From a virus, in the IMG/VR virus record IMGVR_UViG_3300030104_000307, positions 1-21,635 of that record: a stretch of DNA of 21,635 bases; one strand, given 5' to 3'. Shown one piece after another: positions 1,463 through 16,521 of the stretch. The notes under the pieces are model-generated. The model was not told where the DNA came from. It saw only the letters and a program-made list of their open reading frames with translations, and did not search any database. Position numbers and translations under genes: made by a program. The stretch's first letter is position 1. Each line of letters begins with the position of its first letter.

Positions 1463-2285
1463 TGAACAGACAACTGCACAAGAAGTGCAATCTGAACAGA
1501 CTATAAACGAACAACCGCAAGAAACATCATTTATTGATACCTTGCCAGAAGATATACGAGCAGATGCCTCGTTACAAAATTTTAAAGATGCTGGACAACT
1601 AGCTAAAAGCTATGTTCATGCACAACGAATGGTAGGTGCAGATAAAATGCCAGTACCAAATAAAAATTTTACGGAAGATGATTGGAAACAAACATTTTCT
1701 AAGTTAGGTGTACCAGAAACACCTGATGATTATAATATTAATTATACTTTACAAGAAGGAGCAGATCCGCAACCAGTTAAAAACTTTGTTTCTCATGCAC
1801 ATAAATTAGGAATGTTACCCCAACAAGTGCAAGGAATACTAGATTACTATGGTAATTTGGAAAGCCAAGGAAATGAAGAAATGCAAAAACAAGCAGAATT
1901 AAATAAACTTAATTCTGAACAAGAATTACGCAAAGAATTTGGTTTAGCTTATGATAAAAAAATTAATCAAGCCAATAATGTTTTTGGTAAATTTTTTGTT
2001 GATGATTTAAAAGATGTTAAACTACAAGATGGTAGTGATATATTAAATCATCCTGGCTTTATTAAAGCTCTTAGTAAATTATCTGATAATTTTTCTGAGG
2101 ATAATTTAGGTGCAGACCAAACAGAGAGTGGTGGATTTACACCTAATGAAGCACAAAAAGAAGTTTCAAAAATCATGGGAGATCTTAACCATCCATATTG
2201 GATAAAAGATCATCCAGGTCATGCTGCTGCTGTTAAAGAAGTAGCTGATTTGCAAAACATGATACATCCGAATTTAGAAGGGTAG
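1455..2285 (+). CDS. Capsid scaffold / assembly protein
   Basis: A 276-residue acidic, Gln/Glu-rich protein starting at ATG 1455 with a strong AAAGGAG site. It matches the T7 gp9-like scaffold type: a low-complexity acidic N-terminus (1-25), a segment 'FIDTLPEDIRADASLQNFKD' region (about 26-45) followed by LAKSYVHAQRMVG (about 49-61), and a mainly helical C-terminal half. Scaffolds of this type guide coat assembly into procapsids and leave before maturation. Its position directly before the capsid gene and after the portal is the usual one. The stop codon and last codons sit in the 5' arm of an RNA hairpin described separately, so translation termination here could influence folding of the capsid leader. 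Confidence 0.88.
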   Translation: MADEQTTAQEVQSEQTINEQPQETSFIDTLPEDIRADASLQNFKDAGQLAKSYVHAQRMVGADKMPVPNKNFTEDDWKQTFSKLGVPETPDDYNINYTLQEGADPQPVKNFVSHAHKLGMLPQQVQGILDYYGNLESQGNEEMQKQAELNKLNSEQELRKEFGLAYDKKINQANNVFGKFFVDDLKDVKLQDGSDILNHPGFIKALSKLSDNFSEDNLGADQTESGGFTPNEAQKEVSKIMGDLNHPYWIKDHPGHAAAVKEVADLQNMIHPNLEG

Positions 2286-2401
2286 TGCGAAAGCATCCTT
2301 CTTGACCATCTGAATAGTAGAGCAACTAACAGTTGTAAAATGCAGACGAACCTACCTGGTAGATAATTCTTCGAAATTTTAACCTTAATTTGAATAGGAG
2401 G
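2276..2401 (+). promoter_or_regulatory. Candidate structured 5' leader RNA of the capsid gene
   Basis: A 121-base gap in a genome whose genes otherwise overlap. Three hairpins can be drawn directly. (1) AGAAGG 2276-2281 pairs with CCTTCT 2297-2302; inside it GTGC 2285-2288 pairs with GCAT 2293-2296 (one G-U) around a GAAA tetraloop (2289-2292), with a three-base bulge (2282-2284). (2) GCAACT 2322-2327 pairs with AGTTGT 2331-2336 (one G-U) around a three-base loop. (3) CTAC 2352-2355 pairs with GTAG 2359-2362; an A+T stem 2365-2368/2375-2378 follows. A strong ribosome site AGGAGG (2396-2401) ends the element 5 bases before the capsid ATG. It could be a stability/processing element (T7 uses RNase III sites here) or a translational regulator. 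Pairings are seen; function is inferred. Confidence 0.55.
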
Positions 2402-2406
2402 ACATT

Positions 2407-3282
2407 ATGTCTAATCAAATTACAACAGCTTTTGTACAGCAGTATGGTTCTAATGTACAAATGCTTTCACAACAAATGGGTAGCCGTTTGCGTGAAGCTG
2501 TTGATGTGGAAACTATTACTGGGAAAAATGCATATTTTGAACAAATAGGTTCTGTCGCTGCACAAGTGAGAACTTCTCGCCACGCTTCGACTCCACAAAT
2601 TGATACTCCACATTCTAGACGTAGAGTTAGTTTAGCAGACTACGAGTGGGCTGATCTTATTGATGATGCCGACAAAGTAAGAATGCTAATTGATCCTACA
2701 TCTAGTTACGCAAAAGCAGCAGCTAATGCGATGGGTAGATCAATGGATGATGTTATCATCACAGCTTTGGGTGGCACAGCTTACTCAGGCGAAACTGGAG
2801 GAACTTCAGTTGCGTTACCTAGTACTCAAAAGTTTGCAACATCTAACCAATCAGATGGTTTAACTGTTGCTAAATTATTAGATGCAAAGAAGAAAATGGA
2901 TTTAGCTGACGTAGATCCAAGCATAGCGAGATATATCGTATGCGGAGCAACTCAAATAAGTGATTTGCTTAACACAACAGAAGTAAAATCTTCTGACTTC
3001 AATACAGTTAAAGCTCTAGCACAAGGTCAAATTGATTCTTTCTTAGGGTTTAAATTTATTATGTCAAATAGATTGAGCTTCGATGCAAGTAATACTGACG
3101 ACAGATTAGTTTTTGCTTTCACAAAAGATGCTATCAAACTTGCCATTGGTAAGGATGTTACAGCAAGAATATCTGAGAGGGATGATAAATCATACTCTAC
3201 TCAGGTGTACTACTGTATGTCAGTTGGTGCAACTAGAATGGAAGAAGAAAAAGTTGTTCAGATTCCTTGTCATGAAGCATAG
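2407..3282 (+). CDS. Major capsid protein
   Basis: 291 residues, starting at ATG 2407 with a near-perfect AGGAGG site, the strongest in this half of the window, as expected for the most abundant virion protein. The sequence looks like podovirus/pelagiphage coat proteins: N-terminal arm to about residue 35, then RTSRHASTPQIDTPHSRRRV (about 56-75), SLADYEWADLIDDADKVRML, and a central region with ARYIVCGATQISDLL (about 174-190) and the late stretch RLSFDASNTDDRLVFAFTKDAI. Coat proteins of this kind (HK97 fold) assemble on the scaffold around the portal into the icosahedral head. Position after scaffold and before a strong terminator matches T7 gene 10. No frameshift-derived longer form (as T7 10B) is evident. 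Exact Pfam family is not checked. Confidence 0.9.
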   Translation: MSNQITTAFVQQYGSNVQMLSQQMGSRLREAVDVETITGKNAYFEQIGSVAAQVRTSRHASTPQIDTPHSRRRVSLADYEWADLIDDADKVRMLIDPTSSYAKAAANAMGRSMDDVIITALGGTAYSGETGGTSVALPSTQKFATSNQSDGLTVAKLLDAKKKMDLADVDPSIARYIVCGATQISDLLNTTEVKSSDFNTVKALAQGQIDSFLGFKFIMSNRLSFDASNTDDRLVFAFTKDAIKLAIGKDVTARISERDDKSYSTQVYYCMSVGATRMEEEKVVQIPCHEA

Positions 3283-3294
3283 GAGGGTTAAGAT

Positions 3295-3738
3295 ATGGCT
3301 AGTGTAAAATCAAGTGCGATAACTAACTTAGATGCTGTACCAGCGGTTAATTCTGATGGTGGTAATCTATCTCCAATGATGGTATGGCATGATACTTATG
3401 AAGCATCTTCTTTAGCAAGTGGTTCTGACATCACTATCGCAAGAATACCAGCTGGATCTACGATCCATGATGTAGTCTTAAAATGTGATGCTCTTGGTGG
3501 TTCATCAACTTTAAAAGTTGGTACTGCTGCTGATGATGATTTATTCATCGCTGCAACTGGAACTTGGAATGCTGGAGGACAAACTCAGTCAATGCAAGCT
3601 GGCTCATCAACTGGTGCGCCAATAGCTACTGTAACTGGTTTAGCTAACAAAGTAAGTACACAAACAGATATTATTATTACTACTGGTGGAGCATCCATCA
3701 CAGGTACAATATTCTGTTGGGTTTACTATACTCAATAA
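3295..3738 (+). CDS. Probable head decoration / head fibre protein
   Basis: A 147-residue protein following the capsid gene by 12 bases, with an AGGAGGG site overlapping the capsid stop codon. It is rich in Gly, Ser, Thr and Ala and looks all-beta: alternating hydrophobic strands such as DITIARIPAGSTIHDVVLKC (about 43-62), STLKVGTAADDDLFIAA, and a closing TDIIITTGGASITGTIFCWV. Proteins of this size and composition next to the coat gene are commonly capsid decoration or minor head proteins in marine phages. It is co-transcribed with the coat gene and both lie before the terminator at 3747-3776, so it should be made in large amounts, which fits a protein that coats the head. The role is inferred from position and composition; no catalytic motif is visible. 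Confidence 0.6.
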   Translation: MASVKSSAITNLDAVPAVNSDGGNLSPMMVWHDTYEASSLASGSDITIARIPAGSTIHDVVLKCDALGGSSTLKVGTAADDDLFIAATGTWNAGGQTQSMQAGSSTGAPIATVTGLANKVSTQTDIIITTGGASITGTIFCWVYYTQ

Positions 3739-3746
3739 TTAATATG

Positions 3747-3776
3747 AGGGGGATTTTTGAATCCCCCTTTTTTTTT
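3747..3776 (+). terminator. Strong intrinsic terminator after the capsid operon
   Basis: A 9-bp perfect stem (AGGGGGATT 3747-3755 with AATCCCCCT 3760-3768), loop TTTG, and a run of nine T (3768-3776). It sits 8 bases after the decoration gene stop. By position it corresponds to T7 Tphi after gene 10, where termination is partial and lowers tail-gene expression relative to capsid. Confidence 0.93.
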
Positions 3777-3788
3777 ACAGGAGAAACA

Positions 3789-14761: not shown

Positions 14762-14784
14762 ATAAAGAATTTAGTTGAACATTA

Positions 14785-14814
14785 TTGACATTTAATTTAA
14801 GAAATAACAATAAA
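14785..14814 (+). promoter_or_regulatory. Possible sigma70-like promoter upstream of the tail fibre gene
   Basis: A perfect TTGACA (14785-14790) is followed after 18 bases by AATAAA (14809-14814, 4 of 6 matches to TATAAT). A start near 14821 would fall in the loop of the terminator hairpin, so new transcripts would carry only its 3' arm and escape termination. The -10 is weak, and chance matches are common in A+T-rich DNA. Confidence 0.3.
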
Positions 14815-14840
14815 CTAGATATTTCTGTCTAGTTTTTTTT
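14812..14840 (+). terminator. Intrinsic terminator before the tail fibre cassette
   Basis: An 8-bp perfect stem, AAACTAGA (14812-14819) with TCTAGTTT (14828-14835), loop of eight bases, followed by T to 14840. The stem is A+T-rich and weaker than the capsid terminator, so read-through is likely. It lies in the 104-base gap (14762-14865) between the internal virion genes and the fibre gene; apart from this and a possible promoter the gap shows nothing else. Confidence 0.72.
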
Positions 14841-14865
14841 ATTTCCCAAAACATTAGAGGACTAC

Positions 14866-16521
14866 ATGACGATTTCTAGCACGACTACGAAAAATTCGTA
14901 TAGTGGAAATGGATCTACTACAACTTTTGCTTATGGGTTTTACATTTCAGCATCGACAGACATACAAGTAATTGTACGATCTTCGACAGGAACGGAAACT
15001 GTAAAAGCTGAGGGTTCAGGATCAACCAATTACAGCATAACAGGTGTTGGCAACGCCAGCGGTGGAAACATTGTATTTGTAACAGCGCCAGCATCAGGCG
15101 AAACTGTTGTACTTAGAAGAAATACAGCAAAGACACAAGCTACTGATTATGTTGCTAATGATCCTTTCCCAGCAGAAACACACGAAAGTGCATTAGATAA
15201 ATTAACAATTATAGGTCAAGATTTACAAGAACAAGTTGATCGTTCATTAAAACTATCAAGAACGAATACAATGACCTCAACAGAATTTACTGTTGGATCA
15301 TCTGATCGTGCATCAAAGATTTTAGCTTTTGATAGTACAGGAGAATTATCAGTTACCCAGGAGTTAGGTACAGTAAAAGGCAACTGGTCTGCATCAACAG
15401 CTTATGTGGTAAGAGATATAGTTAAAGACACAAACACTAATAATATTTTTATTTGTTTAACTGCTCATACATCTTCAGGATCAGTACCATTAACTACTAA
15501 CACCGATGCTGCTAAATGGAGTTTATTAGTAGATGCTGCATCAGCAACGACAAGTCAAACTGCTGCGGCTGCAAGTGCCACAGCAAGTGCCAATTCCGCC
15601 ACAGCTAGTGCTGCAAGTGCTTCAACTGCGAGTGGACATAAAGATACTGCGACTACAAAAGCCTCAGAAGCCGCTTCATCGGCAACAGCTTCGGCATCAT
15701 CAGCCACTTCTGCTGCTGCAAGTTATGATAATTTTGATGATAGATATTTAGGAGCAAAATCTTCTGATCCATCTAATGATAATGATGGAGATAGTTTAAT
15801 TACTGGTGCTTTATATTTTAATACATCAAACAATGTAATGATGGTTTACACAGGAAGTGCCTGGGTAAGAACAACACCATCATCTTCGGATCAAACAAAT
15901 ATTAATACTTTATCTGCTAGTGCAGTTGTAACCGATATGGATTTACTTGCTACGTCAGCGGTAATCGAAGATATGGGATTACTTGCAACGTCAGCTAATG
16001 TAACAGCTATGGGATTACTTGGTGTATCTGGTGTTATAACTGACATGGGATTACTTGGAACGAGTGCAGTTGTAACTGATATGGATTTATTAGGAACGAG
16101 TGCCAATGTAACAAACATGGCAACACTTGGAGCTAGTGGGGTTGTATCAAATATTGCAACTGTCGCTGGATCAATAGCAAATGTAAACACCACCGCATCA
16201 AATATTTCTGGAGTAAATAGTTTTGCTGAAAGATATAGAGTAGGTTCAAGCGATCCATCTTCTTCACTTGATGAGGGAGATTTATTTTATAACTCATCAG
16301 ATAATGCTTTAAAATATTACAATGGTAGTGCCTGGGCATCTATTGTTGCTGATACCGATGTTAAAGTTCTTGTAAGTTCAAATGACTCAACTGCTGGTTT
16401 TTTGAATGGTAAATTAGTTGCTGGTACAGCGATTACTTTTGCCGAAGCTAATGATGGCAGTAACGAAACACTAACAATTAACGCAACTGATCCTACGGCT
16501 CTTGCGATTGCGTTAGGATAG
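14866..16521 (+). CDS. Tail fibre protein (T7 gp17-like N-terminus)
   Basis: 551 residues (T7 gp17 is 553); ATG 14866 with AGAGG five bases upstream. Residues 1-135 match the T7 tail-fibre N-terminal domain that attaches to the nozzle: YSGNGSTTTFAYGFYISAST, VVLRRNTAKTQATDYVANDP and FPAETHESALDKLTIIGQDL. Residues about 171-222 (GNWSASTAYVVRDIV...AAKWSLL) look like a carbohydrate-binding module 5/12-type unit. Residues 223-287 are almost only Ala, Ser and Thr, a shaft or hinge. Residues 348-443 hold a 12-residue tandem repeat flanked by two copies of an 'SSDPS...GxLxFNxSxN...GSAW' module (293-335, 457-491). There is no S74 chaperone at its own C-terminus, so tips are probably supplied by the following genes. 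Base composition here is visibly richer in G+C than in the internal virion genes. Confidence 0.9.
   Translation: MTISSTTTKNSYSGNGSTTTFAYGFYISASTDIQVIVRSSTGTETVKAEGSGSTNYSITGVGNASGGNIVFVTAPASGETVVLRRNTAKTQATDYVANDPFPAETHESALDKLTIIGQDLQEQVDRSLKLSRTNTMTSTEFTVGSSDRASKILAFDSTGELSVTQELGTVKGNWSASTAYVVRDIVKDTNTNNIFICLTAHTSSGSVPLTTNTDAAKWSLLVDAASATTSQTAAAASATASANSATASAASASTASGHKDTATTKASEAASSATASASSATSAAASYDNFDDRYLGAKSSDPSNDNDGDSLITGALYFNTSNNVMMVYTGSAWVRTTPSSSDQTNINTLSASAVVTDMDLLATSAVIEDMGLLATSANVTAMGLLGVSGVITDMGLLGTSAVVTDMDLLGTSANVTNMATLGASGVVSNIATVAGSIANVNTTASNISGVNSFAERYRVGSSDPSSSLDEGDLFYNSSDNALKYYNGSAWASIVADTDVKVLVSSNDSTAGFLNGKLVAGTAITFAEANDGSNETLTINATDPTALAIALG
15742..15870 (+). repeat. First copy of the SSDPS/GSAW module of the tail fibre
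   Basis: Encodes residues 293-335 with RYLGAKSSDPS, GALYFNTSNN and YTGSAWV. A second, diverged copy (residues 457-491, bases 16234-16338: RYRVGSSDPS, GDLFYNSSDN, YNGSAW) lies on the other side of the 12-residue repeats. The motif is a common phage-fibre beta unit. Confidence 0.7.
15907..16194 (+). repeat. 36-bp (12-residue) tandem repeat in the tail fibre shaft
   Basis: Seven units plus one degenerate unit encode variants of LLGTSAVVTDMD (for example LLATSANVTAMG, LLGVSGVITDMG, LLGTSANVTNMA). The DNA units begin TTACTTG and diverge mainly at third positions, showing an old duplication held by protein selection. A 12-residue period with buried Leu-Leu, Val and Met suits a trimeric beta or coiled shaft. 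Confidence 0.85.
16234..16338 (+). repeat. Second copy of the SSDPS/GSAW module of the tail fibre
   Basis: Encodes residues 457-491 (RYRVGSSDPS, GDLFYNSSDN, YNGSAW), a shorter and diverged copy of the module at 15742-15870. The two copies bracket the 12-residue tandem repeat, suggesting internal duplication during growth of the fibre. Confidence 0.7.

Follow-up and report, generated by a model that had tools for sequence, protein, structure and literature searches.

A conserved structured RNA ahead of the major capsid protein gene in pelagiphages and related tailed phages

The interval between genes 9 and 10 of phage T7 carries a promoter and RNase III sites, with a terminator located after gene 10, and a T7-like RNase III site is a long, near-perfect double helix of about two turns. 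In single-stranded RNA phages, each coat-protein operator of the MS2 type consists of one hairpin at the start of the replicase gene. In riboswitches that sequester the Shine-Dalgarno sequence and in operators of the ribosomal-protein type, the off state pairs the element with the ribosome-binding site (RBS) of the gene. The site of ribosomal protein S8, present in the spc operon and in 16S helix 21, displays a conserved asymmetric internal loop of seven nucleotides with an invariant adenine beside isosterically varying partners, and it lies in the mRNA near the translation start (PMC4176348). The putRNA of HK022 is about 70 nt long and is made of two bulged stem-loops, with putL just downstream of the promoter; its target is the RNA polymerase of early operons, where it suppresses termination (PMC9378689).

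The window, that is, the whole stretch of DNA that was analysed, is an entire IMG/VR virus record of 21,635 bases and probably a genome fragment. Its head genes match those of HTVC010P-type pelagiphages and are ordered connector, small gene, assembly protein, major capsid protein (MCP), structural gene and tail tubular proteins; all features described below are on the + strand. The capsid-assembly or scaffold-type protein (1455–2285) matches PHROG 3742, with a weak match to the PHROG 458 protease, and its counterparts in isolates are annotated 'capsid assembly protein'. The MCP (2407–3282; Pfam PF19821 Phage_capsid_2, E 1.5e-92; PHROG 3437) is followed by a virion structural protein (3295–3738, PHROG 486) and by a strong intrinsic terminator (3746–3777), which closes the MCP unit and sits between the post-MCP gene and the next small gene. 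In HTVC010P-type phages (L086 at 2365–2414, also L082, L085, L087, L088 and L098) a second conserved hairpin, TAGGGGGTGAAAGCGAGAGTGGAAACCCCCTAGAGTGC, follows the MCP unit and is not a plain terminator. A previous reading of the window, made from the sequence only, had pointed to its largest gap as a candidate RNA leader, and this gap indeed lies between the assembly-protein and MCP open reading frames (ORFs), spanning 121 nt (2286–2406). The second-largest gap (14762–14865, about 104 nt) holds a terminator-like hairpin, AAACTAGATATTTCTGTCTAGTTTTTTTT, ahead of a long gene at 14866. The gap before the MCP gene occupies the same place in the head-gene order as the T7 gene 9-10 interval, and, as in T7, a terminator lies beyond the capsid unit. 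It differs from the T7 interval by having no helix of RNase III length, no promoter found in the window and a specific fold supported by covariation. The RNase III processing that had been suggested by analogy with T7 is at odds with the longest uninterrupted conserved helix, which is just 6 bp.

The conserved RNA element covers 98 positions (2276–2373), is made of four hairpin units and is represented by two models, R1 and R2; R1 matches the window with an E-value of 2.4e-19, the window itself being in the seed. P1 (2276–2302) is formed by the arms AGAAGG (2276–2281) and CCTTCT (2297–2302) with an inner stem TGC/GCA and a GAAA loop (2289–2292), and it has an internal loop in which GUAG (2282–2285) faces U2296. 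The scaffold stop codon TAG (2283–2285) had been placed in the 5′ arm of P1, where it does lie, but within the 4-nt bulge GTAG, so that it is unpaired. After the conserved joining segment GAC (J1/2, 2304–2306) comes P2 (2309–2321), which pairs TCT (2309–2311) with AGA (2319–2321) around the conserved loop GAATAGT (GAA(N)AGA in the family), and then P3 (2323–2335), CAACT/AGTTG with the triloop AAC. The single strand UAAAAUG (2336–2342), which carries G2342, leads to P5 (2345–2372; GA-c-GAA/TTC-t-TC), in which 86% of the cells are paired and whose strands GAcGAA (2345–2350) and TTCtTC (2367–2372) enclose P4 (2352–2362; CTAC/GTAG, loop CTG), with a 3′-side bulge AUAA (2363–2366) facing C2351. A spacer that is A/U-rich and G-poor (2374–2395; 75% A+T and 13% G in relatives) separates the element from the RBS, namely the Shine-Dalgarno sequence AGGAGG of the MCP gene (2396–2401). 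The hairpins named by the sequence-only reading (AGAAGG/CCTTCT with GAAA, CAACT/AGTTG and CTAC/GTAG) and AGGAGG are all where it had put them, while P2, P5 and the AUAA bulge were overlooked.

Folded as a single sequence, the element has an ordinary energy (MFE −22.4, z −0.07; a fold at least as stable is reached by 96 of 200 shuffled sequences), and beyond P1 the MFE fold no longer agrees with the conserved fold. With such an energy the hairpins by themselves prove nothing, and it is the evolutionary keeping of the shape that decides. Relatives were taken from about 280 gaps of viral contigs found by capsid searches, 18 annotated phage records, four more distant phages and 13 bacterial-genome contigs. 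In nearly all of the viral-contig gaps, 118–279 nt precede the MCP gene and the blocks recur with changed letters. As a first MAFFT alignment (A1) moved P5 between clades, A2 and the model-fitted A3 were used instead, A2 and RNAalifold being independent of the model fit. Among 15 relatives of the window type, 94.2% of the cells are paired as compared to 78.2% upon shuffling, both sides have changed in 14 of the 27 pairs, and the covariation score is 0.449, against 0.151 for shuffled alignments and at most 0.111 with the partners slid. RNAalifold recovered the P1–P4 hairpins with no structure supplied. Across 72 distinct matches, the model-fitted alignment, which is biased towards the structure of the model, displays compensatory changes on both sides in 26 of the 27 pairs (9/9 in P1, 4/4 family pairs in P2, 4/5 in P3, 4/4 in P4 and 5/5 in P5), with a covariation score of 0.774, which falls to 0.249 on shuffling and to 0.132 or less when the partners are slid.

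Many of the contigs are close kin, with an effective number of sequences of about 19 and a mostly marine sampling. When changes were counted along the MCP tree, so that most of the effect of shared descent is taken out, 179 of the 290 events proved to be double compensatory changes, versus 5–12 when partners were slid by 1–2 columns. Besides, when 4753 column pairs were ranked by APC mutual information, 22 of the 27 helix pairs were found within the top 39. It is this combination of conservation and covariation that raises the stretch above chance. The proposal of a structured, conserved RNA is thus borne out by covariation across homologous gaps, the very check suggested for it, which the RNA-structure claim survives. 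As judged by comparison of the sequences, the same fold is kept in hundreds of related phages despite changing letters.

The mutual information also revealed a non-nested pair, ranked 7 of 4753, that joins base 3 of the P3 triloop to the base following UAAAU, and which in the window predicts a tertiary contact of C2330 with G2342. The counts at this contact are CG 46, AC 18, AU 4 and UA 1, and only 73% are standard pairs because A.C is scored as unpaired. The triloop AAC is found with UAAAUG, AAA with UAAAUC and ACT with UAAAUA, while the four-base loops ATGA and ACGA are found with U. Along the MCP tree, three fully canonical double changes were counted for this pair; the contact is thus well supported by association, while independent events lend it less support. 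In P1, the internal loop switches as a block between ACAA:C and GUAG:U, a change that fits an isosteric exchange of A.C and G.U. Loop position 3 is A in almost every relative, with neighbours that vary between A.C and G.U. The loop between P5 and P4 is composed in the same way but with the opposite strand order, and reads AGAA, AUAA, GGAA or ACAA mostly with C, and GGAG with U. From this we infer that a single motif may serve in both the P1 and the P5/P4 loops, turned round in one of them.

In order to describe the distribution of the element, we searched with both models, the E-values of which are rough. R1, seeded with window-type sequences, produced 75 matches across 100 sources with an E-value cut-off of 1. 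They lie in the gap before the MCP gene and include HTVC010P-type members outside the seed, many of which have E-values between 1e-6 and 1e-10. Cultured isolates carry the element, among them HTVC010P, HTVC203P, Greip and Lederberg. R1 had no match in HTVC028P and Baldr, R2 matched HTVC028P weakly (E 0.24), and R2 reached other kinds of phages (E 2.7e-5 and 0.003, plus weaker matches at the same place). In the corresponding gap of Vibrio phage CKB-S2, where R2 is silent at E up to 2, GTCG-C-CC-GCAA-GG-ATAA-CGAC and CGG-ATAA-TCAttttTGA-C-CCG can be seen by eye, and we consider these modules as a lead to a further relative. Of the 15 records searched whole, 13 hold just one copy of the element, setting aside a weak extra match (E 0.18) in HTVC100P. 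We also scanned independently of the MCP at least 80 loci collected by a DNA pattern in which the capsid gene plays no part and which favours HTVC010P-type members. Among the matches listed, R2 found the element in 47 of 80 loci, tblastn placed an MCP directly downstream in exactly those 47, and no other genomic context occurred. Host mimicry was considered and rejected, since a search of 197 SAR11-family genomes, with strict filters that lose weak matches, returned one copy only, on a contig also carrying a phage MCP.

The position of the element follows the capsid gene. The distance from P5 to the MCP ATG is 30–43 nt, with two exceptions among the loci measured, and the upstream stop lies at +7, at −1 to −26, at about −76 or at +39 relative to the element, depending on the clade. 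The upstream ORF accordingly ends in the P1 bulge (window type), just 5′ of P1, about 76 nt earlier, or in the P2 loop (HTVC010P type, in which P1 and part of P2 are inside a small ORF). Because the distance to the MCP start is nearly fixed and the upstream stop varies, the element goes with the MCP gene rather than with the 3′ end of the assembly gene, and a coupling of scaffold termination to folding, as had been envisaged, does not hold with a stop position that varies between clades. One relative (L305) has the same kind of MCP with a gap of only 14 nt and no element, showing that the element is not essential to every such MCP gene. Two variants of the gap were observed: in L042 (1537–1624) about 60 element bases are missing between P3 and the RBS, through natural deletion or assembly error, and gaps of the L026 type (L026, L060, L065 and others) have an extra long hairpin, GATTTCTAGG...CTTAGAAAT, directly 5′ of P1.

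We then compared the RBS-element pairing of native and swapped combinations. In pelagiphages there is no excess of such pairing, with permutation fractions of 0.88 (window type), 0.37 and 0.998, and a native element and RBS complement each other only as well as swapped ones do, or less well. A classical masking off-switch is consequently unlikely in pelagiphages, and Shine-Dalgarno sequestration was rejected for them. In L290-301, the RBS-element pairing reaches −18.45 kcal/mol in native versus −14.98 kcal/mol in swapped combinations (0 of 5000 permutations), and native beats swapped pairing in three other non-pelagiphage groups (p about 0.005–0.013). In these distant relatives the RBS is often complementary to the AYAA-containing 3′ strand of the last module; in L290-L301 and L315-L317 its complementarity to the upstream element extends up to 13 bp, as with GGATAACCTTTCC and GGAAAGGTTATCC in L292 or GGATAAGCCTC and GAGGCTTATTC in L315. 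P5 and the RBS-masking hairpin would be mutually exclusive there and likely constitute a translational switch, which is not directly transferable to pelagiphages because these have no excess RBS pairing. Upstream of the L315 MCP, the module GGC-C-CCGG...CCGG-RYAA-GCC is present in three copies. Another arrangement is found in a sister clade, the Baldr-type phages (L090, L179-L258), where an extended −10 promoter, TGNTATAAT, precedes the first hairpin and an additional hairpin lies near P5. In 22 non-redundant phages of this type the best extended −10 match is 12–20 nt before the CCC of the first hairpin; with this near-fixed distance, the capsid mRNA of these phages would begin with the RNA at its very 5′ end. 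No convincing promoter was found before the element in the window.

The RBS left open in pelagiphages, its complement in relatives and the Baldr-type promoter lead us to favour a cis-acting, structured mRNA leader that governs capsid output, probably by binding a protein, a reading to which we give roughly even chances. As the comparison shows, the RNA folds as P1, GAC, P2, P3, UAAAAUG and P5 enclosing P4, and its conserved unpaired letters could form the binding surface for a protein, which may be a component of capsid assembly or an RNA-binding protein of the host. Binding would then set the amount of capsid protein made from the mRNA. In distant relatives this may operate through a choice between P5 and the hairpin hiding the RBS, while in pelagiphages, including the window, where the RBS is open, control might be exerted by proximity or by stabilisation of the 5′ part of the mRNA. 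We put forward more tentatively a wider version, in which a three-dimensionally folded RNA of marine, soil and other tailed phages senses a capsid-assembly or host ribosomal protein via its internal loops and thereby gates MCP translation. If this is true, double-stranded DNA phages would possess a capsid-linked translational feedback acting via an RNA operator. A conserved regulatory RNA of the capsid gene would be an overlooked basic means of balancing capsid against assembly protein, and the cultured isolates carrying the element make its role directly testable.

The main rival is protection of the mRNA, antitermination and a ribozyme being minor ones. A compact 5′ RNA could shield, without any ligand, the capsid mRNA from 5′-end-dependent or phage and host ribonucleases, and with the terminator after the next gene guarding the 3′ end a single long-lived capsid message would result. 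The terminator at 3746–3777, which closes the unit of MCP and structural gene, is in line with this, as are Baldr-type promoters that would begin the transcript at P1 and an A/U-rich spacer to the RBS that is unpaired with the element. Moreover, a putative ribonuclease is part of a genomic island common to HTVC010P-like phages (PMC6487183). Stability alone nevertheless leaves unexplained the conserved unpaired GAC, GAANAGA, UAAAUG and RNAR:Y, the covarying contact between loop and strand, and the RBS complementarity of other clades, and we regard it as possible though rather doubtful.

An antitermination of the putRNA kind, acting on the nascent transcript, is improbable in our view: by analogy, the RNA would bind the polymerase and let it pass the post-capsid terminator into the tail genes. 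Baldr-type phages do have a bulged-hairpin RNA at a promoter, and downstream of the capsid unit there is a terminator; however, the 30–43 nt spacing to the MCP and the RBS complementarity of relatives favour translation and not elongation, and the architecture with four hairpin units is unlike putRNA. The compact fold, the many conserved unpaired bases and the loop-strand contact would also suit a self-cleaving ribozyme that generates the 5′ end of the capsid mRNA. This we hold to be quite improbable, as no Rfam ribozyme reached the gathering score in the window or the relatives searched, none matched the window gap (to E 5) or seven relatives (to E 2), and no cleavage-site-like junction was identified. 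Least credible by far is a mere spacer with chance hairpins, or a conserved DNA or coding signal, even with the ordinary single-sequence folding energy and with P1 and part of P2 lying within a small ORF in HTVC010P-type phages, because pair-preserving double changes dominate (179 versus 5–12) and the element of the window is non-coding from 2286 onward.

We then compared the element with known RNA families. At the gathering score, Rfam 15 gave no match in the window or the related loci searched, and a permissive search gave none up to E 5 in 2240–2440 and none to E 2 in seven distant relatives; its absence from Rfam agrees with the suggestion of an undescribed phage RNA family. Our literature search, with incomplete coverage of subscription papers and of HTVC010P-type genomics, found no description of this RNA, which is apparently undescribed. 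The element resembles MS2 coat-protein operators in that a phage mRNA carries small hairpins with bulges close to a start codon, which could link expression to a capsid protein, but it has four hairpin units before the MCP start of a double-stranded DNA phage where those have a single hairpin, and this MCP is not known to bind RNA. The likeness to the S8 site consists of an asymmetric loop, a near-invariant A and A.C/G.U neighbours. In the phage loop RNAR faces a single C or U in most relatives, the short strand is shorter and the loop occurs twice, unlike in the S8 site. The conserved seven-nucleotide loop of an S8-binding site was not found here, nor was any Rfam leader match; the resemblance to a ribosomal-protein leader is a lead by analogy. 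With putRNA the element has bulged stem-loops in common, and its first hairpin adjoins the promoter in Baldr-type relatives as putL does, whereas it differs by four hairpin units instead of two stem-loops and by lying at a set distance from a single late structural gene. By working principle, ribosomal-protein leaders and putRNA are the nearest known systems, and we assign the element to neither.
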